A stretch of 25,334 nucleotides of DNA from a virus (IMGVR_UViG_3300046007_007079:1-25334); one strand, 5' to 3'; numbered from the stretch's first letter, positions 8,613 through 24,408 are shown. The notes: generated from the sequence alone by a model not told the origin. Made by a program: numbers and translations.

Positions 8613-9143
8613 ATGGCAACAACACTTAGACAAGATTTATTTCATAAATATTCACAGGGATCAGAGGTATTCTTTGAGACTGGTACATATAAAGGAGAAG
8701 GAATAGAGGAAGCCTTAAAATATAATTTTAAGGAATTTTATAGCATAGAACTTTTTAAACCATTATATAATTTTTGTATAGAAAAATTTAAAAATCAAGA
8801 TAATATTAAAATATATTTTGGAGATAGTTCTGAAATATTAGGAGATATTGTAAAAAGTATAGATAAAAAAATAACTTTTTGGCTAGATGGACATTTTTCT
8901 GGAGATCATACAGCAAAAGGCAAAAAAATATCGCCAATAATTGAAGAATTAAATCAAATACAAAATCATAAAAGAAATGATCATATAATTATGATTGATG
9001 ATCTAAGATATGTAAGGCAAGGCTATTATGAAATGAATATGCCTCAAATTATCAATAAATTAAAAGATATTAACAAAGATTATGAAATACTTTTTGAAAA
9101 TGGCGTAGATGTAGATGATATTCTGGTAGCATATATTAAATGA
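8613..9143 (+). CDS. SAM-dependent methyltransferase-like protein
   Basis: About 176 aa with a class I methyltransferase-like core. FFETGTYKGEGIEEAL (F20-L35) matches motif I (E22-x-G24...G28). YSIELFKPLYNF fits the acidic end of beta-2, and GDSSEIL fits motif II. FWLDGHFSGDHT corresponds to the 'fwlDgH-s---T' strand found in small uncharacterised proteins near glycan genes. IIMIDDLR is a later core strand. ATG 8613 lies two bases after the previous stop and is preferred over the overlapping TTG at 8607. Likely role is methylating or otherwise modifying a sugar intermediate; this is inferred from neighbours only. Confidence 0.6.
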   Translation: MATTLRQDLFHKYSQGSEVFFETGTYKGEGIEEALKYNFKEFYSIELFKPLYNFCIEKFKNQDNIKIYFGDSSEILGDIVKSIDKKITFWLDGHFSGDHTAKGKKISPIIEELNQIQNHKRNDHIIMIDDLRYVRQGYYEMNMPQIINKLKDINKDYEILFENGVDVDDILVAYIK

Positions 9144-10132
9144 AAATATTAATTACTGGTGGAGCAGGAATGATCGGTAGTGTTTTATCTAGATATTTTC
9201 TTGATAAAAAATATAATATCATTCTATTGGATAATTTAAGCGGAGGATTTAAAGAAAATCTTCCTGAGAATATTAAATTTTATTTAAATGATATTTGCGA
9301 TACTAATTCTATAAATAAAATATTTGAATTAGAGAATCCAGACTATGTGATACATTGCGCTGCATATGCAGCCGAGATTTTAAGTCCATTTATAAGAAAA
9401 TATAATTATGAAAACAATTTAATAGGATCGATAAATATCATAAATGCTTGTATAAATTACAATGTTAAAAAGATAATCAATTTTTCTAGTTTTGCAACAT
9501 ATGGAGATGGCAATCCACCCTTTAAAGAAGATCACGTAAGAAATCCTAAAGATCCATATGGTATTGCAAAATTAGCCATAGAGATGGATTTGAAAGAAGC
9601 TTATGAACATTTTGGATTAAAGTATTCTACAATATTACCGCACAATGTTGTATCAAAATATCAAAACTATTGGGATAAATATAGAAATGCTATAGCAATT
9701 TGGATTAGACAAGCTTCTCTTCTCGAGGATATTACTATTTTTGGAGATGGGTTACAAACGAGAGCTTTTTCAGATTGTCAATTTTTATGTGATCCAATAG
9801 AAAAACTATTAACGAATTATGATGATCATTTTTTTAATATAGGATCAGATCGTCCAGTATCAATTAAAGATGCAGCTGAACTAGTTCTAAATATAGGTAA
9901 GGATTTTGGATTTAATAAATCAAAGCTCGTATTTCTAGAAAAAAGAAGAGAGGTAGTACATGCTTTTTGCGACCATCAAAAAGCTAAAGATTTATTAAAT
10001 TTTAAAGATAAGACAGATCTTAAAAATCTTATAAAAGAGATGTATGAATATTATATTCAATTTCCAAATAAAAAAGTAGAGTATATGAACTATGAAATAG
10101 ATAAGAATATATACTCTTTTTGGAAAAAATGA
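9140..10132 (+). CDS. NAD(P)-dependent nucleotide-sugar epimerase/dehydratase (extended SDR)
   Basis: 330-aa extended short-chain dehydrogenase/reductase of the UDP-glucose 4-epimerase group. The cofactor motif GGAGMIG is at 7-13. VIHCAAYAA is the NNAG-equivalent segment, SSFATYGDG carries the Ser/Thr region, and the catalytic pair is Y140-x-x-x-K144 in DPYGIAK. FNIGSDRPVSIKDAAELV is the expected C-terminal substrate-domain segment. It should interconvert or oxidise/reduce a nucleotide-activated hexose. Whether it epimerises UDP-sugars or reduces the 4-keto product of the neighbouring GDP-mannose dehydratase cannot be decided here. It starts on an ATGA overlap, within the glycan operon. Confidence 0.85.
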   Translation: MKILITGGAGMIGSVLSRYFLDKKYNIILLDNLSGGFKENLPENIKFYLNDICDTNSINKIFELENPDYVIHCAAYAAEILSPFIRKYNYENNLIGSINIINACINYNVKKIINFSSFATYGDGNPPFKEDHVRNPKDPYGIAKLAIEMDLKEAYEHFGLKYSTILPHNVVSKYQNYWDKYRNAIAIWIRQASLLEDITIFGDGLQTRAFSDCQFLCDPIEKLLTNYDDHFFNIGSDRPVSIKDAAELVLNIGKDFGFNKSKLVFLEKRREVVHAFCDHQKAKDLLNFKDKTDLKNLIKEMYEYYIQFPNKKVEYMNYEIDKNIYSFWKK

Positions 10133-10133
10133 A

Positions 10134-10733
10134 ATGAATAAAGCTTATATTAAAAATCTTTTAAAAAAAGATAATCCTATTATTTTTGAAATTGGTTGCG
10201 CAGATGGGATTGATACCCAACAATTTTTAAATGAGTTTTCTGAAATCAAAATTTATGCTTTTGAACCAGATCCATATAATCTAAATATTATTAAGAATAA
10301 AAATTTTGATAAAAGATTTAATATCTTCAAAGGGGTTGTAAGTAGTACTGATGGTACTAGATATTTTTTAAGGTCTGATGGATCTAGACATTCTGGATCA
10401 ATACTAAAACCTAAAAATCATTTAAATATTTGGCCAGAAGTACATTTTACAGAACAAATAGAAGTAGAATCAATTAGATTAGATACATTCTGTGAAATTA
10501 ATTTAATTAATCAAATAGATTTTATATGGATAGATGCGCAGGGAGCAGAGGGTGAAATCCTCAAGAGTGGAAAAAATATATTAAAAAATACAAAATATAT
10601 ATATACAGAATACTCTGATAATGAATGGTATGAGAATCAACCAAATCTACAAATGTTAATAGATATTTTAGGTGAAAATTGGATTTTAAAAGAAAAATTT
10701 CAAGCAGATGTTCTATTTGAAAATATAAATTAA
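10134..10733 (+). CDS. FkbM-family methyltransferase
   Basis: 199-aa SAM-dependent methyltransferase of the FkbM family. Motif I is PIIFEIGCADGIDTQQF (15-31), followed by IYAFEPDPYNL for the cofactor ribose region, GSILKPK and SIRLDTF. IDFIWIDAQGAEGEILKSG is diagnostic of FkbM ('d-iklDvqGaE--vL-G'). FkbM proteins O-methylate sugars or polyketides, and in polysaccharide or phage clusters presumably methylate sugar hydroxyls. One base separates it from the SDR gene upstream. No Shine-Dalgarno is seen. Substrate unknown. Confidence 0.85.
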   Translation: MNKAYIKNLLKKDNPIIFEIGCADGIDTQQFLNEFSEIKIYAFEPDPYNLNIIKNKNFDKRFNIFKGVVSSTDGTRYFLRSDGSRHSGSILKPKNHLNIWPEVHFTEQIEVESIRLDTFCEINLINQIDFIWIDAQGAEGEILKSGKNILKNTKYIYTEYSDNEWYENQPNLQMLIDILGENWILKEKFQADVLFENIN

Positions 10734-10744
10734 ATTAATAGTAT
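10717..10744 (+). promoter_or_regulatory. Possible weak promoter upstream of GMD gene
   Basis: TTGAAA (10717-10722), 16 nt, then TAGTAT (10739-10744), ending 6 nt before the ATG at 10751. An overlapping TATTAT (10742-10747) is another -10 candidate. Spacing to the start codon matches the stronger promoters here, but in such AT-rich DNA a chance match is likely. Confidence 0.3.
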
Positions 10745-10750
10745 TATATA

Positions 10751-11887
10751 ATGAATAATATTCAAGAAACTTATTACGGAAAAAAGATAGACACCGCAAA
10801 TATCTTAAATATTGAGGATGCCAGTAAGTTGATCAATGGAAGAAGAACTGTAGTAATAACTGGAGTAACTGGTCAAGATGGAAGCCATATGGTTGATTTT
10901 CTACTGAAAAATACAGATTATGTTATCTTTGGTGGAGTAAGAAGATTAAGCGTTTATAATCACGAAAATATTAAACATATAAATTCAAATAGATTTTATC
11001 TTATTAATTTTGATTTAACTGATTCTCATGCTATATCTAGAACAATAGAAAAAATTCAACCAGATTATTTTATTAACTTTGCTGCTCAAAGTTTTGTGGC
11101 TAGTAGCTGGGATTTTGCTCGACAAACTTGGCAAACTAATTCTACTGCAGTACTTGATATTTTAGAAGCCATTAGACTTTATAAACCATCTTGTAGACTT
11201 TATCAAGCTGGATCTAGCGAAGAATTTGGGAATGTTCAGTATATCCCACAAGACGAAAATCATCCGTTAAAACCTCGAAGTCCATACGGAGCAAGTAAAG
11301 CCGCCTCTAGACAATTGGTTAAAGTATATAGAGAATCTTATAATATTTACGCTATTCAAGGATGGCTATTTAATCATGAAGGCACAAGACGAGGCGAAGA
11401 ATTCGTGACTAGAAAAATTACAAAAAATGTAGCAAGAATTTATAATGCAATAAAAAATAATAAGGAATTTAAACCACTTGAATTAGGCAATATAGACGCA
11501 AAAAGAGATTGGAGCGATGCAGAAGATTTTGTAGAAGGCGTTTGGATGATGTTAAATCAAGATAAATATAATTTAAATTACGATGGAATACCAAAAGAAT
11601 ATATTTTTTCATCTAATGAAACTCACACAATTCGAGAATTTGCAGAGAAAGCTTTTACTTACGCTGGTATCAGTGGAGAATGGGTTGGACAGAAAGAACA
11701 TGAGGTATATCTTTCAAAAGATAAGAAAGTGTTAATTCAAATCAATCCAAAATTCTATAGACCTGCTGAAGTAGATCTTTTACTTGGAACATCAGATAAA
11801 GCTAGGAAAGAATTAAATTGGAAGCCTAAAATCTCATTTGATAATCTTATTAAAAAAATGATAGATCACGATATTAATAATGAATAA
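10751..11887 (+). CDS. gmd: GDP-mannose 4,6-dehydratase
   Basis: 378 aa. It converts GDP-D-mannose to GDP-4-keto-6-deoxy-D-mannose, the first step to GDP-L-fucose, GDP-D-rhamnose and related deoxysugars. The signature is strong: TGVTGQDGS (37-45), [20 protein letters not shown] (Ser-Ser-Glu catalytic region), SPYGASKAA with Y179 and K183, [18 protein letters not shown], and [22 protein letters not shown] is the expected C-terminal block. There is an N-terminal extension of about 34 residues before the Rossmann core compared with the usual enzyme. It probably supplies the donor for the GT10-like transferase at 6258-7109. It overlaps the next gene by 8 nt. Confidence 0.93.
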
Positions 11888-12956
11888 TTTTAAAAAAAAG
11901 ATTTTAGTAACAGGATCATCAGGTTTAATTGGATCTGAAACTGTATCATTTTTTTATTTACAAAATTATGAGATACATGGTATAGACAATAATCAGAGAG
12001 CAGTATTTTTTGGTCCAAATGGAGATACTCGCTGGAACCAATTAGAAATGCAAAGAAAATATAAAAATTTTGTACATCATGAAATAGATATAAGAGATAG
12101 AAATGGTATATTAAATTTAATAGAAAAAATAAAACCAGATATTATTATTCATACAGCAGCTCAACCTAGTCATGATTTAGCAGCAACAATTCCATTTGAA
12201 GATTTTGATACAAATGCGGTTGGAACATTAAATTTACTGGAAGCCGCAAGGAGATTCTGTCCAGATGTAATTTTCATACATATGTCTACTAATAAAGTCT
12301 ATGGAGATAGACCAAACCAAATAAAATTAAAAGAATTAGAAACGAGATGGGATTATGAAGATATAAATTATATAAATGGCATTAATGAAAATTTTTCAAT
12401 AGATAATAGTAAACACTCACTTTTTGGTGCATCAAAATTAGCTTCAGATATAATGGTTCAAGAATATGGTAGATATTTTAATATTAAAACTTGCTGCTTG
12501 AGAGGTGGATGTCTTACTGGGCCAAATCACAGTGGGGTTGAGCTACATGGATTTTTATCATATTTAATAAAATGTAATCTAGAAGAAAGAGTATTTAAAA
12601 TTTACGGATACAAAGGCAAGCAGGTTAGAGATAATATTCATTCTGTAGATGTAGTTAATTTTATAATGAATTTTATAGAATCTCCAAGAATTGGAGAAGT
12701 ATATAATTTAGGAGGAGGAAGAGATAATAGCTGTTCTATATTAGAAGCATTTTCAAAAATAGAAACTATAACTAATAAGAAGATGAAATATGAATATATA
12801 GAGAAGAATCGCGAAGGAGATCATATCTGCTATATATCAGATTTGTCAAAGATTCATAAACATTTCCCTAATTGGAAAATAACTAAATCGTTAGATTCAA
12901 TTCTAATCGAAATAGCAGAATCTTGGAAAAAAAGAATAGAAATTGATTGTAATTAG
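11880..12956 (+). CDS. CDP-paratose 2-epimerase-like SDR
   Basis: 358-aa extended SDR. It has the cofactor motif [10 protein letters not shown] (11-20), a long insert after beta-2 ([11 protein letters not shown]) as in CDP-paratose/tyvelose 2-epimerase-like proteins, [25 protein letters not shown], then [20 protein letters not shown] and [12 protein letters not shown]. The catalytic Tyr position appears to be Phe: SLFGASK gives F182-x-x-x-K186. I recall the same replacement in relatives but cannot check it, so the chemistry may differ from a standard Tyr-dependent SDR. It is the last gene of the glycan cassette, just before a promoter that starts the replication module. Exact nucleotide-sugar substrate unknown. 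Confidence 0.75.
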
Positions 12957-19207: not shown

Positions 19208-19951
19208 ATGATACCATTATTTAAGTCTCATTATTCTTTAGGTAGGTCAATACTTACTCTTGAGGATAAAAGTGAAGCTGATGACTATCCAGACTCAATA
19301 ATACAAATAGCTAAAGAGAATAAATTAAGTGAGATCTTTTTGGTTGAGGATAATATGTCTTCATTCTTAGAAGCATATACTAATACAAAAAATAATAATA
19401 TAAAATTAAATTATGGATTAAGAGTATCTGTAACGGAATCAATTAATGATAAAAGCGATGAATCAAGACAAAAGACTTCTAAAATTATTCTATTTTTTAA
19501 GAATAAAAAAGGACACGAATCATTAACTAAATTATTTAGTATTGCAGCTAAAAGTGGATTCTATTATGAACCAAGACTTGATTATGAAACATTAAAAAAT
19601 AATTGGTCAGATAATTTAATTCTTTGTATACCATTTTATGATTCTTTTATATTCAATAATACGCTCAAAAATTATATATGTATTCCGCAATTTAATTTTA
19701 CGAAACCAATAGCTTTTCTAGAAGATAATGATTTACCATTTGATACGATTGTTAAAAACAAGCTAGAAAAATATATAAAAGAAAATGCACTTGAACTTTT
19801 TAAAACTAAGAGCATTTACTATAATAAAAAATCAGATTTTAAAACTTACTTGACATTTCGATGCATTAACAATAGAAGTATTCTTAATAAGCCAGAGATC
19901 GAGCATATGTCAAGCAATGAATTCTGTTTTGAAAGCTGGTTATCAAAATGA
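19208..19951 (+). CDS. DNA polymerase III alpha, separate PHP domain (N-terminal piece)
   Basis: 247 aa corresponding to the N-terminal PHP domain of a C-family polymerase. MIPLFKSHYSLGRSILTLED aligns with the 'lHvHSeYSLLdG' opening. KENKLSEIFLVEDNMSSFLEAY aligns with 'ak-lG--alAlTDhgnl-g-vef'. The later IKLNYGLRVSVTE matches 'i-pIiG-E---', and KIILFFKNKKGHESLTKLFS matches 'l-lLakn--GykNL-kL-S'. The C-terminus RSILNKPEIEHMSSNEFCFESWLSK matches the 'yl-S-eEM' segment just before the palm domain. The polymerase continues only at 21247. The HxH metal ligands are replaced (LFK before SHYSL), so the PHP active site looks dead. The stop overlaps the next gene by ATGA, with no intein sequence at the end. 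Confidence 0.78.
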   Translation: MIPLFKSHYSLGRSILTLEDKSEADDYPDSIIQIAKENKLSEIFLVEDNMSSFLEAYTNTKNNNIKLNYGLRVSVTESINDKSDESRQKTSKIILFFKNKKGHESLTKLFSIAAKSGFYYEPRLDYETLKNNWSDNLILCIPFYDSFIFNNTLKNYICIPQFNFTKPIAFLEDNDLPFDTIVKNKLEKYIKENALELFKTKSIYYNKKSDFKTYLTFRCINNRSILNKPEIEHMSSNEFCFESWLSK

Positions 19952-20409
19952 AGATTACTCTTACAGACGCAGAATGTTTGATGCTAAAAACTCTAGGAGG
20001 CATGAGAAGTCTAGTGGCTAGATCTGCTGGTGTTAAAGACGCAAAAATGGGAGATCAAAATGGGTTAGAAGCAGATATAGATGGGTTAATGGGCGAGTAT
20101 GCTTTTTGTAAATGGAAAAATATTTTCCCAGACTTGATTCCTGCCCCAAGAAGCGGAAGCTGTGATTGTATCTTAAAAAATCAAAGAATTGATATAAAAA
20201 CTACCAGATATAAAACTGGCAGACTTCTAGCTACATTAAAGAATAATCAAGATATTGATATTTATGTTCTAGCGATCTTAGAAGAGAATACTGTTGATTT
20301 TGTAGGATGGGCTAAGAAGGAAGATCTATGTCAAGAAAAGAATGTAAAAAATCTAGGTCATGGTAATGGCTATTGCTTAGACCAGAATGAATTGAGGAGT
20401 TTTAATTAA
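19948..20409 (+). CDS. PD-(D/E)XK-like nuclease candidate within the polymerase split
   Basis: 153 aa, not recognised by name. It has a plausible PD-(D/E)XK core: DGLMGEYAFCKW with E50, GSCDCIL with D73, and RIDIKTTRY with D82-x-K84. LLATLKN follows, then a DIDIYVLAILEENTVDFVGWAKKEDL strand-turn-strand typical of such folds. It starts on an ATGA overlap with the PHP piece and precedes the exonuclease gene. Its place in the break of a conserved polymerase gene raises the possibility of a free-standing homing-type endonuclease. A replication-accessory nuclease, or a phage protein only sharing the fold, is also possible. Confidence 0.58.
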   Translation: MKITLTDAECLMLKTLGGMRSLVARSAGVKDAKMGDQNGLEADIDGLMGEYAFCKWKNIFPDLIPAPRSGSCDCILKNQRIDIKTTRYKTGRLLATLKNNQDIDIYVLAILEENTVDFVGWAKKEDLCQEKNVKNLGHGNGYCLDQNELRSFN

Positions 20410-20410
20410 A

Positions 20411-21049
20411 ATGGACGAGCATCTCTTAAGATATAACAAAACTAAGAATTTAGTATTTATAGATTGTGAAACATTTAATCTCTGCTTAAATTTTTGTCAT
20501 AATCTTCCTTGGCAGATAGCTATGATTAAAGTACAGGGTGATAAAAAGGTTGATGAAAAAAACTTTTATCTTAAATGGCAGACTGAATTAAAAATAAGTC
20601 AAGATGCAGCCAGAATTACTAGATATGATCATAAGAAAGTGCAAAAAGAAGGTCATGACCCAAAAGAAATTTTTCCTACGATTAAAGACTGGCTAGATCA
20701 TGCAGATTATATAATTGGACATAATACTTTAGGATTTGATATTTATCTTATAAAAGAATATTATAAATATATGGGATGTAATTGGAAACATTTAGTAAAT
20801 AAATTTATTGACACGAATACTATTGCTCGCGGTATTAAATATGGTATACCATATAATCCAAAAGAAAGTCTAATAGAATATCAATATAAAATATATCATA
20901 CAAGAAAGAAAAATGTTAAAAGTTCATTGACGACTTTAGGTAAAGAAAATGGTATAGATCATGATTATGATAAACTTCATGACGCTATAAATGATCTTGA
21001 CTTAAACTTAAAAGTATGGAATAAATTGAAATGGCAAGTAGAGGTGTAA
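20411..21049 (+). CDS. DnaQ-like DEDDh 3'-5' exonuclease
   Basis: 212-aa exonuclease that probably proofreads for the adjacent polymerase. ExoI is NLVFIDCETFN with D18-x-E20. ExoII is IIGHNTLGFDIYL with D110. ExoIII is KLHDAINDLDL with H190 and D195, giving the complete DEDDh set. Length fits a stand-alone epsilon-type subunit, without the long alpha-binding tail expected in E. coli epsilon. It has one of the few plausible Shine-Dalgarno sequences here, GAGGAG (20394-20399), 11 nt upstream of ATG. It lies between the two polymerase pieces, so complex stoichiometry may be set by co-translation. RNase T-type roles cannot be excluded. Confidence 0.88.
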   Translation: MDEHLLRYNKTKNLVFIDCETFNLCLNFCHNLPWQIAMIKVQGDKKVDEKNFYLKWQTELKISQDAARITRYDHKKVQKEGHDPKEIFPTIKDWLDHADYIIGHNTLGFDIYLIKEYYKYMGCNWKHLVNKFIDTNTIARGIKYGIPYNPKESLIEYQYKIYHTRKKNVKSSLTTLGKENGIDHDYDKLHDAINDLDLNLKVWNKLKWQVEV

Positions 21050-21050
21050 T

Positions 21051-21266
21051 ATGGCATCATTAGATGATATTTATGATATGGTTCAGAAATTAGATAATTC
21101 TAATATAGAATATCTTTTAATTACAATTCAAAAAGGCAAAAAGAATGGTAAAGCAGATGTTTTTTATTCTTTAAAAGATAGAAATTCAATGAAGATATTA
21201 ACTCATGGATTGAATCAATTTACAAAAGAAATAGATAGGCTAGAGGATGAAGGAAAATTTGAATAA
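21051..21266 (+). CDS. Hypothetical 71-aa protein between exonuclease and polymerase
   Basis: Not recognised. A small, mixed alpha/beta candidate: MASLDDIYDMVQKLDN (helix-like), EYLLITIQKGKKNGKADVFYSL (likely beta hairpin), and a C-terminal helix LNQFTKEIDRLEDEG. GAGGTG (21041-21046) lies 4 nt before the ATG. The last 20 nt overlap the polymerase start in another frame. Its position between the exonuclease and polymerase suggests a small subunit or coupling leader. It does not resemble E. coli HolE (theta) in sequence. Confidence 0.6.
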   Translation: MASLDDIYDMVQKLDNSNIEYLLITIQKGKKNGKADVFYSLKDRNSMKILTHGLNQFTKEIDRLEDEGKFE

Positions 21267-23841
21267 TATTTTAAACGATAAAGACTTCTCATCTAAATTT
21301 GATAATTTAGATTTAGGATTGCATGGCGTTAGACTTCCAGAGTTTAGCATTGAGTCCTCAACAAAAAGACACCTCAATCTTAGTGAAGATGTTTCGAATT
21401 ATGATTTTCTTAGAGCTTTAGCTTTGAATGGGTTTAAAGATCTAAAAATAGATAAAAATCTACCAGAATATAAAAAATATGTAGATCGTGCTAAATATGA
21501 GCTTGAAACACTAAAAGAGCTTGGATTTATTGATTATATTTTACTTGTATGGGATGTTATTAACTTTTGCAAGATGCATAATATTCCAGTTGGTCTTGGT
21601 AGAGGTTCAGCCGCTGGATCTCTAATTCTGTACCTTGTAGGAGTCACAAGGATCGATCCAGTTAAATATAACCTTTATTTCGAAAGATTTATATCCAAGA
21701 TTCGAGCTAAAAAGCAGGTTGTTGATGGAATAACCTATCTAGATGGTAGTTTAATGTGTGACGTAGATCTTGATATTTGTTATTATAATCGTCATAAAGT
21801 ATTAGAATATCTAGAGACTAAATTTAAAGGCAAAACTAGCAAGATTTTAACGCTTAATACTCTTAGCGGTAAACTGCTAATAAAAGAATGTGGTAAGATT
21901 ATTGGTGAAAAGACAGAGGAAGAAATGACTACAATATCGTCTTTAATTCCAAAAATATTTGGTCAAGTAAAAGATATTACAACTGCATATGACGAAGTAT
22001 CTAAATTTAAAGAATGGTGCGATGAAAATAAAGAGATATATCAAATTGCTCTAAAGCTAAGAGATTTAATTAAAAATAAGGGTGTTCATCCATCTGGAGT
22101 TTTGTTATCTTATGATGATCTAGAAAAAGTATGCCCAACAGAATTTTCTTCTGATAAAGAACCAGTCTCAAGTTTTGATATGAATTGGGTAAGCCTATTT
22201 AATATTAAATTGGATATCTTAGGCTTAAGAAGCGTTTCTGTTGTAGATGATGTCTGTAAAAATATTGGAATAAAAGTTCAAGATATTGATCTGAATGATG
22301 TATCAATTTATCAAAACCTTCAAGATCTAAAATCTCCACATGGACTATTTCAGATTGAAGCAGATACGAACTTTAAAGTCTGTCAAAAAGTAAAGCCTAA
22401 AAATCTCGAAGAACTTAGCGGAGTTTTAGCTCTAGCAAGACCAGGCGCATTACAATTTGTTGATAAGTATGCCAAGTATACAAACACAGGTGATTACGAA
22501 GGTATTCATCCATTTTTTGATGATATCTTAAAGCAAACTGGTGGCGTTGCTCTTTATCAAGAGCAGTTAATGCAAATGGCACATAAAATTGGTTTTGATC
22601 TTGATGAAGCAGAAATCTTAAGAAGAATTGTAGGTAAAAAGAAAATCGATGAGATTAAATCTTGGCAAAAGAAGATTGATGCAAAAATAAAACAAAATAA
22701 ATTACCAAAAGAAGTCGGTGAAATCTTATGGAAAATTATGGAGGATTCCGCAAATTATTCATTTAATAAATCACATTCACTAGCTTATGCGGCATTGGCA
22801 GCGGTAACAATTTACTTAAAATTTAATTATCCTCAACAATTCTTTTTATCTCTATTGAAGATGAGCAGAAATGAGCCAGACCCAATTGGTGAAATTTCTA
22901 AGATTCAGAAAGAGATGCATGAATTTGATATTCAACTTTTGCCACCTCATATTATTAAATCAGCAATGGATTTCTCAATTGAGGAAAAAGATATAAGATT
23001 TGGTCTACTATCAATTAAAGGCATTTCAGATAAATCAATAGAAAAATTAAATAGCTTTAGAAATAAATACTCAAATAAGTTTGAGATATTCCAAGCCGCA
23101 GAAGAAGCTGATCTAAATATTGGAGTATTATCTGCATTAATTCAAGCTGGCGCATTAAGTGGATTTAATCAATCTAGAAGTAAAATCGTACTAGAAGCAC
23201 AGCTTTGGAATATTTTAACTTCAAAAGAGAAAAAATACGCCATCTCATTTGCCGAGAAATTTGATTATGATTTAATTAAAATTATTAAACATTTAAATAA
23301 ATTTACTGACGAGAAGAATCATGTCGTTATTAAAGAGAATAGACTAAAGACTATTAAGAATAAATATGAACCATATCTACAGATATATAATCAAAATAGT
23401 AAAAGCGAAAGTTTCGCAAATTGGTATTATGAAAAGAAGCTTTTAGGATATACATATAATAAGTCATTAAAAGAAATATTCTCAGAGAAGAGAGAAAATC
23501 TAAAATATATATGCGATATTATTGAAGAGCCAGTTAATTCAAAAATAGCTTATGTTGGTCAAATTGAAGATGTCTTTACTGGGGTATCAAAAAATGAAAA
23601 GAAAACTAGATATGTTAGACTAAAAATATCTGATGAAACCGCCTCAATGAATGTTTTGATATTTAATGATAATATTGAAAATAATAAATTATTAAATAAT
23701 AAACCTTTTGAAGAAGGAAATATAGTTATAGTTAAAGGCTTAAAGAAAGATGATTGTATATTTGGAGATCTAGTCGCTATTCAAGATCAACAGATATACA
23801 TGAAACTAAATGATCTAAAGAAAATTGATAAAAATAATTGA
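21247..23841 (+). CDS. DNA polymerase III alpha, polymerase core without PHP domain
   Basis: 864-aa C-family replicative polymerase beginning just before the palm. LPEF opens the linker, PEYKKYVDRAKYELETLKELGFIDYILLVWD leads to GLGRGSAAGS (GRGS at 118-121), YNLYFERF, and the catalytic pair CDVDLDI (D174, D176). HPSGVLLS (281-288) and IKLDILGLRSV (third Asp D323) complete the palm. HGLFQIEAD, VLALARPGAL, YQEQLMQMA and FNKSHSLAYAALA are fingers and thumb-side motifs. A helix-hairpin-helix lies near 620-640 and an OB domain near 766-845 (YVGQIEDVF, MNVLIFND). About 14 extra residues lie between FERFIS-R and the catalytic Asp pair compared with E. coli DnaE. The PHP domain is encoded separately at 19208-19951. 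Confidence 0.92.
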   Translation: MKENLNNILNDKDFSSKFDNLDLGLHGVRLPEFSIESSTKRHLNLSEDVSNYDFLRALALNGFKDLKIDKNLPEYKKYVDRAKYELETLKELGFIDYILLVWDVINFCKMHNIPVGLGRGSAAGSLILYLVGVTRIDPVKYNLYFERFISKIRAKKQVVDGITYLDGSLMCDVDLDICYYNRHKVLEYLETKFKGKTSKILTLNTLSGKLLIKECGKIIGEKTEEEMTTISSLIPKIFGQVKDITTAYDEVSKFKEWCDENKEIYQIALKLRDLIKNKGVHPSGVLLSYDDLEKVCPTEFSSDKEPVSSFDMNWVSLFNIKLDILGLRSVSVVDDVCKNIGIKVQDIDLNDVSIYQNLQDLKSPHGLFQIEADTNFKVCQKVKPKNLEELSGVLALARPGALQFVDKYAKYTNTGDYEGIHPFFDDILKQTGGVALYQEQLMQMAHKIGFDLDEAEILRRIVGKKKIDEIKSWQKKIDAKIKQNKLPKEVGEILWKIMEDSANYSFNKSHSLAYAALAAVTIYLKFNYPQQFFLSLLKMSRNEPDPIGEISKIQKEMHEFDIQLLPPHIIKSAMDFSIEEKDIRFGLLSIKGISDKSIEKLNSFRNKYSNKFEIFQAAEEADLNIGVLSALIQAGALSGFNQSRSKIVLEAQLWNILTSKEKKYAISFAEKFDYDLIKIIKHLNKFTDEKNHVVIKENRLKTIKNKYEPYLQIYNQNSKSESFANWYYEKKLLGYTYNKSLKEIFSEKRENLKYICDIIEEPVNSKIAYVGQIEDVFTGVSKNEKKTRYVRLKISDETASMNVLIFNDNIENNKLLNNKPFEEGNIVIVKGLKKDDCIFGDLVAIQDQQIYMKLNDLKKIDKNN

Positions 23842-23874: not shown

Positions 23875-24408
23875 ATGATATCATTTTATAAACCAAATAG
23901 TAAAAATACAGGTACAGCTTGTAGTTTCAGCGTCAATGCAAAAGACGGGTCAATATGGAGTTCTTTGATAAAGCAAAGTTCATGGAACGAAGGCACAAAA
24001 ACAGGATCATTTTCCGATAATAAAGATAATCCACAAAAAAGTGCAAGAATTAAATTCTCTCCAACAGAAGTCGCTGGTTTACTAGAAACCCTAGATAAAA
24101 ATACAGAATTTTCAGCATACCACTCATCCGAACAACAAATAACTAAAATTAAATTTGCACCTTATATAAAGGATGATAAACAAGTTGGTTTCTCATATAG
24201 CGTTCAGAAGGAAAGCAAAGATAATATTGAAAATAAACAATCATACCTAATAGGCTTCTATTTTAATGAAGCGAGATTATTGAAAGAATTTTTACAATAT
24301 TCACTATCATCTATTTTTGATTCGCAAAGAGTAGAAATGATTAAGAAGATTAAAAATTCTTCAAAAGAGAAAACCTCAGAATCACAAGAAGATAGCGAAC
24401 TTTGGTAA
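23875..24408 (+). CDS. Candidate single-stranded DNA-binding protein
   Basis: 177 aa, family not certain. The body is rich in beta-forming stretches with aromatic residues (FYKPNSKNTGTACSFSV, IWSSLIKQSSW, SARIKFSPTEVAGLLE, ITKIKFAPYI, VGFSYSVQ, SYLIGFYFNEARLLKEFL). It recalls small Whirly/PC4-like ssDNA-binding folds rather than a typical OB-fold SSB. The C-terminus is a Ser/Glu/Asp-rich flexible tail ending QEDSELW, an acidic tail with a terminal aromatic. Bacterial SSB (DDDIPF) and T7 gp2.5 use such tails to bind replisome partners. It has its own strong promoter directly after the polymerase, as expected for an abundant protein. The function is inferred from context and tail. Confidence 0.6.
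   Translation: MISFYKPNSKNTGTACSFSVNAKDGSIWSSLIKQSSWNEGTKTGSFSDNKDNPQKSARIKFSPTEVAGLLETLDKNTEFSAYHSSEQQITKIKFAPYIKDDKQVGFSYSVQKESKDNIENKQSYLIGFYFNEARLLKEFLQYSLSSIFDSQRVEMIKKIKNSSKEKTSESQEDSELW

Follow-up and report, generated by a model that had tools for sequence, protein, structure and literature searches.

A DnaE-type DNA polymerase III alpha broken between PHP domain and palm in a clade of uncultured tailed phages

In the 25,334-base virus contig from IMG/VR analysed here (IMGVR_UViG_3300046007_007079:1-25334; the whole stretch is called the window in what follows), two separate open reading frames (ORFs) resemble the two parts of a DNA polymerase III (Pol III) alpha of the DnaE type, the replicative polymerase found in bacteria. 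The first, php, corresponds to the PHP domain and the second, pol, to the palm and everything behind it, and three other genes are located between them. Are these the two pieces of a single polymerase that works without being one chain, and what do the genes in the break have to do with it? ORF calling together with Pfam and PHROG searches gave the five ORFs, their positions, strand and overlaps as an initial annotation of the sequence had claimed:

19208..19951, + strand: php, 247 amino acids (aa), the PHP-domain piece of a DnaE-type Pol III alpha, metal ligands lost (Pfam, PHROG, AlphaFold model)
19948..20409, + strand: PD-(D/E)XK-like gene, 153 aa, a lineage-specific insertion at the php/exo junction (assigned by eye; PHROG 18407)
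20411..21049, + strand: exo, 212 aa, a stand-alone DEDDh 3'-5' exonuclease, putative proofreading subunit (RNase_T, PHROG 192)
21051..21266, + strand: gene (s71) for a 71-aa protein with a helix, two strands and a helix, kept in only a part of the phage clade described below (alignment, predicted model)
21247..23841, + strand: pol, 864 aa, with palm, thumb, fingers, HhH and a probable OB domain (PF07733, PF17657, PF14579)

The frames follow each other very closely. A 4-nucleotide (nt) ATGA overlap connects php with the PD-(D/E)XK-like gene, 1-nt gaps come next, and the 71-aa gene overlaps pol by 20 nt if the first ATG of pol is used, the start codon of pol being uncertain. Promoter-like sites at the locus are no more frequent than expected by chance.

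The php product matches the Pfam PHP family (6.6e-13) and covers positions 62-288 of 1190 in PHROG 405 ('DNA polymerase'), which is the family of full-length phage DnaE. In a comparison with solved structures, php residues 93-240 align with residues 96-250 of Taq DnaE. Its AlphaFold model (predicted local distance difference test, pLDDT, 84; predicted template modelling score 0.84) has its best match in the PDB with Taq DnaE residues 7-257 (Z 22.7, root-mean-square deviation 2.9, 231 residues). The DnaE proteins of M. tuberculosis and E. coli give Z 20-22 and PolC gives Z 18-19, versus at most 12.4 for free-standing PHP enzymes. These matches to the PHP domains of DnaE show that php is such a domain in its entirety and that the break coincides with the domain boundary. 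The pol product matches DNA_pol3_alpha (PF07733, 7e-56), the finger domain (PF17657, 2.3e-32) and HhH_6 (PF14579, 4e-17), and it covers positions 322-1088 of PHROG 405 (5.6e-155); its residues 79-648 align with Taq DnaE 384-954. The C-terminal OB domain shows up as a weak PF01336 match (E 0.011) that is under the Pfam cut-off. The Asp residues aligned with the palm triad of E. coli (D401, D403 and D555) are invariant in 170/170 pol sequences. php and pol are adjoining stretches of one PHROG 405/DnaE chain: when compared with fused DnaE, php extends to about residue 248 of the E. coli protein, and pol resumes a few residues further on. The break corresponds to the linker behind the PHP domain, about residues 248-275 of E. 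coli DnaE, and the LPEF linker is reached about 24-30 residues into pol. This position was taken from the better-aligned rows and the structure match, a few divergent rows being poorly aligned at their ends. The DnaE alignments thus bear out the proposal that the PHP piece ends before the palm and that the second ORF resumes at the LPEF/linker with the catalytic core. Together, php and pol add up to one Pol III alpha of the DnaE type, divided exactly where the PHP domain gives way to the palm.

Sequence alignments with fused phage DnaE show that the metal-ligand positions of the PHP domain (HxH, TDH, E, H, C/H, DxH) are replaced in php. Another signature is conserved instead (IPxFKSxYSxGxSIL, (V/D)EDN, GLR, IPFYDS and KSIYY), and the ligand set does not correspond to the 22 positions with a conservation of at least 98% among 153 sequences. 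Since the metal-binding residues have been lost, the php protein is almost certainly not a nuclease, judging from these alignments. The exo product matches RNase_T (6.2e-11) and PHROG 192 ('DNA polymerase exonuclease subunit'), and its DEDDh residues D18, E20, D110, H190 and D195 are present in 159/159 distinct exo sequences. In bacteria, PHP domains without ligands accompany separate exonucleases (PMC3666897). The inactive PHP domain of E. coli still stabilises Pol III and is needed for its full stability and activity (PMC3666897), and it binds epsilon (PMC3919608). By analogy, the phage combination of a dead PHP with an intact stand-alone DEDDh exonuclease fits the bacterial pattern, with the PHP here on its own chain.

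Is the arrangement a peculiarity of one contig? Four IMG/VR scans with increasingly divergent queries and one scan of GTDB genomes gave several hundred loci, 267 of which have strong matches to both php and pol. Some contigs were fetched more than once and the distinct sequences are therefore fewer (209 for php, 207 for pol). php and pol are separate ORFs in 267/267 loci and fused in 0, and exo lies between them in all 267 as the sole constant gene of the break. The initial annotation had described three genes in the break; for the exonuclease this holds throughout (267/267), while the PD-(D/E)XK-like and 71-aa genes are not constant. The loci without php in our tallies all start at or inside exo, s71 or pol, or are otherwise truncated upstream, and no loss of php was seen. 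Unsplit versions, which the initial annotation had proposed to look for in related phages, were not encountered within the clade in the four viral scans, each taken as its best 80 loci, so that intermediates between the clade and fused dnaE may have been missed. Fused dnaE was found only outside the clade, at about 30% identity. In a tree with eight unsplit DnaE of phages and E. coli, 36 clade representatives form one group with a support of 100/100.

This clade is a large and widespread group of uncultured aquatic tailed phages. Members are present on contigs of 203,067 bases (L280) and 184,324 bases (L295); as clade contigs reach 203 kb, some of these phages are jumbo-sized. In the GTDB contigs L204-L212 the replicase block is binned into metagenome-assembled genomes named Woesebacteria, Lokiarchaeota, Flavobacteriaceae, Halobacteriovorax and others, which belong to unrelated phyla. 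These matches are most likely mis-binned phage contigs. At L260:3944-7021 and L208:7611-10595, pol is further split into two ORFs each, with overlapping coverage of the pol model (93-119; 489-557).

The ratio of nonsynonymous to synonymous substitutions (dN/dS; median of pairwise values, Nei-Gojobori, dS 0.15-1.5) is 0.125 for php, 0.085 for exo, 0.074 for pol and 0.147 for the 71-aa gene, and all four are under purifying selection. Distances of php and pol are correlated with a rho of 0.94, compared to 0.62-0.66 with the neighbouring thyX and 0.93-0.94 with the primase. As the primase correlates equally high, the php-pol correlation is a sign of common descent and not of contact. Twelve contigs of 56-172 kb, all fragments, contain one C-family palm and one PHP match each; no A-family (PolA), B-family (PolB) or second C-family polymerase was found in them. 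The absence of others from these fragment contigs suggests that php, exo and pol constitute the only recognisable replicase of the clade. A PF02768 beta clamp was not found in 12 fragment contigs, nine of them shared with the polymerase set, in a search that did not cover other clamp types. The initial annotation had taken the locus for a working replicase in pieces, and the presence of the pieces in 267/267 loci, the invariant catalytic residues and the dN/dS of 0.07-0.13 for php, exo and pol support it. It had also listed what would speak against this. A second complete polymerase is missing from the 12 long contigs, decay was not seen in relatives, in which purifying selection and intact active sites prevail, and the same break, far from being an assembly artefact, recurs in independent metagenomes.

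In its composition, the system resembles the bacterial DnaE-type Pol III alpha with its stand-alone epsilon (E. coli, PDB 5fkv), which has the same domains in the same order and the catalytic Asp triad. The PHP of E. coli is inactive and its DEDDh exonuclease separate, as in the phage set. However, PHP and palm are one chain in bacterial DnaE, whereas the phages have two proteins with the exonuclease gene between them and no beta clamp found in their contigs. PolC also unites PHP, DEDDh exonuclease and palm in one replicase, but its exonuclease is inserted within the PHP domain, in contrast to the uninterrupted php fold and the downstream exo gene seen here. The split-intein DnaE of cyanobacteria has intein halves at its junction. 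The ends of php and pol have no room for such halves, which agrees with the earlier statement that the junction shows no intein-like sequence.

Split phage replicases are already known. As a precedent, the initial annotation had thought of split phage genes and named nrdA of Aeh1, leaving out the closest ones, i.e. the 43A/43B polymerases and the Pol III alpha that some jumbo phages encode in two parts. According to PMC2988022, which cites Petrov et al. 2010, the T4-related Aeromonas phages 25 and 44RR have 43A and 43B in place of an undivided gene 43, the break being occupied by a homing endonuclease gene in phage 25 and by an untranslated stretch in 44RR, and the 43A and 43B pieces of phage 25 co-purify with polymerase activity. 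As described there, this is also a phage replicase in two pieces, but one of the PolB family. In the homing-endonuclease splits of nrdA (Aeh1) and gene 43 (phage 25), a homing endonuclease gene occupies the break; the present break always contains the DEDDh exonuclease gene and, in the window, also the PD-(D/E)XK-like gene as optional cargo. In group 2.2 jumbo phages, Pol III alpha is encoded as two proteins that are predicted to reconstitute the enzyme (PMC7824862). There, the chain is broken inside the catalytic module, a PHP is lacking, the genes are distant and a PolB is present alongside (PMC7824862), whereas in the present clade the break is between PHP and palm, the genes are adjacent and a PolB was not found in 12 contigs. 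The open-access literature yielded no description of a phage DnaE that is divided at this boundary, subscription papers not being covered. What is new is the PHP/palm break and its fixation throughout a clade that has no other recognised replicase.

Several isolates also have dnaE in more than one ORF: Rossellomorea phiT1, Corynebacterium P1201, Bacillus KLEB27-3, Alicyclobacillus KKP_3916, phage G and Cellulophaga phiST. In contrast to the present clade, their breaks are inside the palm or the fingers, in some cases beside HNH or homing endonuclease genes, and wherever a PHP match was found, one ORF contained both this match and the beginning of the palm. The dnaE breaks of the unrelated isolates phiT1 (L215) and P1201 (L218) nearly coincide: both come just past the third catalytic Asp, around positions 323-326 of the pol model, where a 49-aa ORF or an overlap is seen. 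Two candidates for a closer parallel were rejected. A 'phosphoesterase' beside dnaE in P1201 was considered as a free PHP gene, but about 120 bases of it overlap with the next ORF; the PHP match of this phage is weak and lies in the polymerase ORF after the 'phosphoesterase', and its dnaE break is in the fingers. The PB1-like phages, considered as a split case from a 466-aa database entry, encode one 1035-aa polymerase.

We consider it quite probable that the replicase core of this clade is a DnaE-type Pol III alpha permanently encoded as two proteins and reassembled with the exonuclease. The reassembly of php, pol and exonuclease is most likely non-covalent. The role of the php protein would be structural, namely to bind the palm from outside and to carry the exonuclease. 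In E. coli alpha the inactive PHP domain has this role in cis; the phage protein would have it in trans. With abutting or overlapping frames in one operon, the parts would be delivered together by translation. We infer that the exonuclease docks on the php protein and that php, exo and pol form the main replicase. Four points weigh against this. The complex of the proteins is a proposal, the models being of single chains only, and pol may be able to function on its own, without php. The contigs are fragments without a completeness estimate, so another polymerase could be encoded elsewhere. Finally, a beta-type clamp that would provide processivity was not found in 12 contigs. Bacterial C-family replicases strictly conserve the PHP domain, and its role when the nuclease site is dead is hard to separate from the fused polymerase. 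These phages have made the cut at the domain boundary and their parts are under selection, which means that PHP-palm and PHP-exonuclease contacts can be studied as subunit interactions. A replicative polymerase may thus be permanently modular throughout a clade, and not just the occasional victim of a homing endonuclease.

The php protein could also have a separate job, as an exonuclease scaffold, a regulator or a host-interaction factor, with pol being a self-sufficient DnaE without PHP. The new conserved signature (FKSxYSxGxSIL, PFYDS) in place of the metal ligands and the somewhat faster evolution of php relative to pol (dN/dS 0.125 versus 0.074) would suit such a role. We nevertheless find it unlikely: the entire DnaE PHP fold is retained up to its C-terminal boundary, php is missing in our tallies only from loci that are truncated upstream or start at or inside exo, s71 or pol, and the inactive PHP domain of bacteria is still required for full stability and activity of Pol III (PMC3666897). 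The order of events could be the reverse of a split, the clade having kept an older, unfused state of separate PHP, exonuclease and palm-finger subunits that were later fused in bacterial DnaE and PolC. The chance that we leave to this history is slim, and it is owed to the long stem of the clade and to the lack of a reliable root in the tree, in which long branches also make the placement within the C family unsure.

Polymerase genes are a frequent site of mobile introns and inteins, and an HNH gene separates two pieces of dnaE in phage KLEB27-3. Yet it is very improbable that the present pieces are joined by RNA splicing, trans-splicing or an intein. No Rfam intron was found over the locus, neither at the gathering score nor at E <= 1, and the intervening sequence consists of conserved protein-coding genes. 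In addition, the php stop comes a few residues past the end of the domain, and the approximately 24 pol residues before LPEF are too short for an intein half. We give just as little credit to a decaying or spare polymerase in a phage that relies on the host replicase. Other phages do use the host polymerase and a phage clamp was not found (PF02768, 12 contigs), but each piece is under strong purifying selection and the catalytic residues are invariant across highly divergent phages. An assembly or sequencing artefact, conceivable for a window that is a single metagenomic contig, has practically no probability left; it is refuted by the recurrence of this arrangement in hundreds of contigs, which come from many metagenomes and contain 207 distinct sequences of pol and 209 of php.

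The permanently divided polymerase is accompanied by two less constant genes in the break. The php/exo junction is a hotspot of insertion, occupied in the window by the PD-(D/E)XK-like gene as a lineage-specific cargo. The junction is tight (<100 nt between stop-to-stop frames) in 131/186 loci. The remaining junctions harbour unrelated genes, including those for IMP dehydrogenase, cupin, SET-domain and glycosyltransferase-17 proteins and for proteins without a Pfam match, some of which resemble PD-(D/E)XK nucleases by eye. Examples of such inserts are L160:1287-2312, L195:4930-5310, L186:4831-5355 and L055:4056-4970. The PD-(D/E)XK-like gene of the window has near-identical relatives only (L002, L003, L042, L044, L079), and its family, PHROG 18407, is of unknown function. 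The 71-aa gene is kept in the window's branch and in some neighbours, and is not recognisable in the larger set. The model of its product (pLDDT 84) gave no convincing fold match (best Z 3.7). This protein is a candidate small subunit.

The locus belongs to a replication block on the + strand at the 3' end of the window. The order is UvsX-like recombinase, DnaB-like helicase, ThyX, DnaG-like primase and a PD-(D/E)XK exonuclease gene, followed by php, the PD-(D/E)XK-like gene, exo, the 71-aa gene and pol. For the helicase, exonuclease and terminase, close relatives were not found among isolates. Directly after pol, at 23875-24408, is a 177-aa ORF that is conserved with pol and has an acidic C-terminus ending in EDSELW. 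Its product has no match in Pfam or PHROG; a single-strand binding protein would be our guess from the tail and the position. Three nucleotide-sugar epimerase-like genes (PHROG 540) are clustered beside the replication block at 9140-12956. On contig L010, thyX matches are found at both 843-1103 and 2067-2519, the N-terminal part with 92% identity and the other stretch with 77%, which suggests that this gene has been duplicated, interrupted or exchanged.

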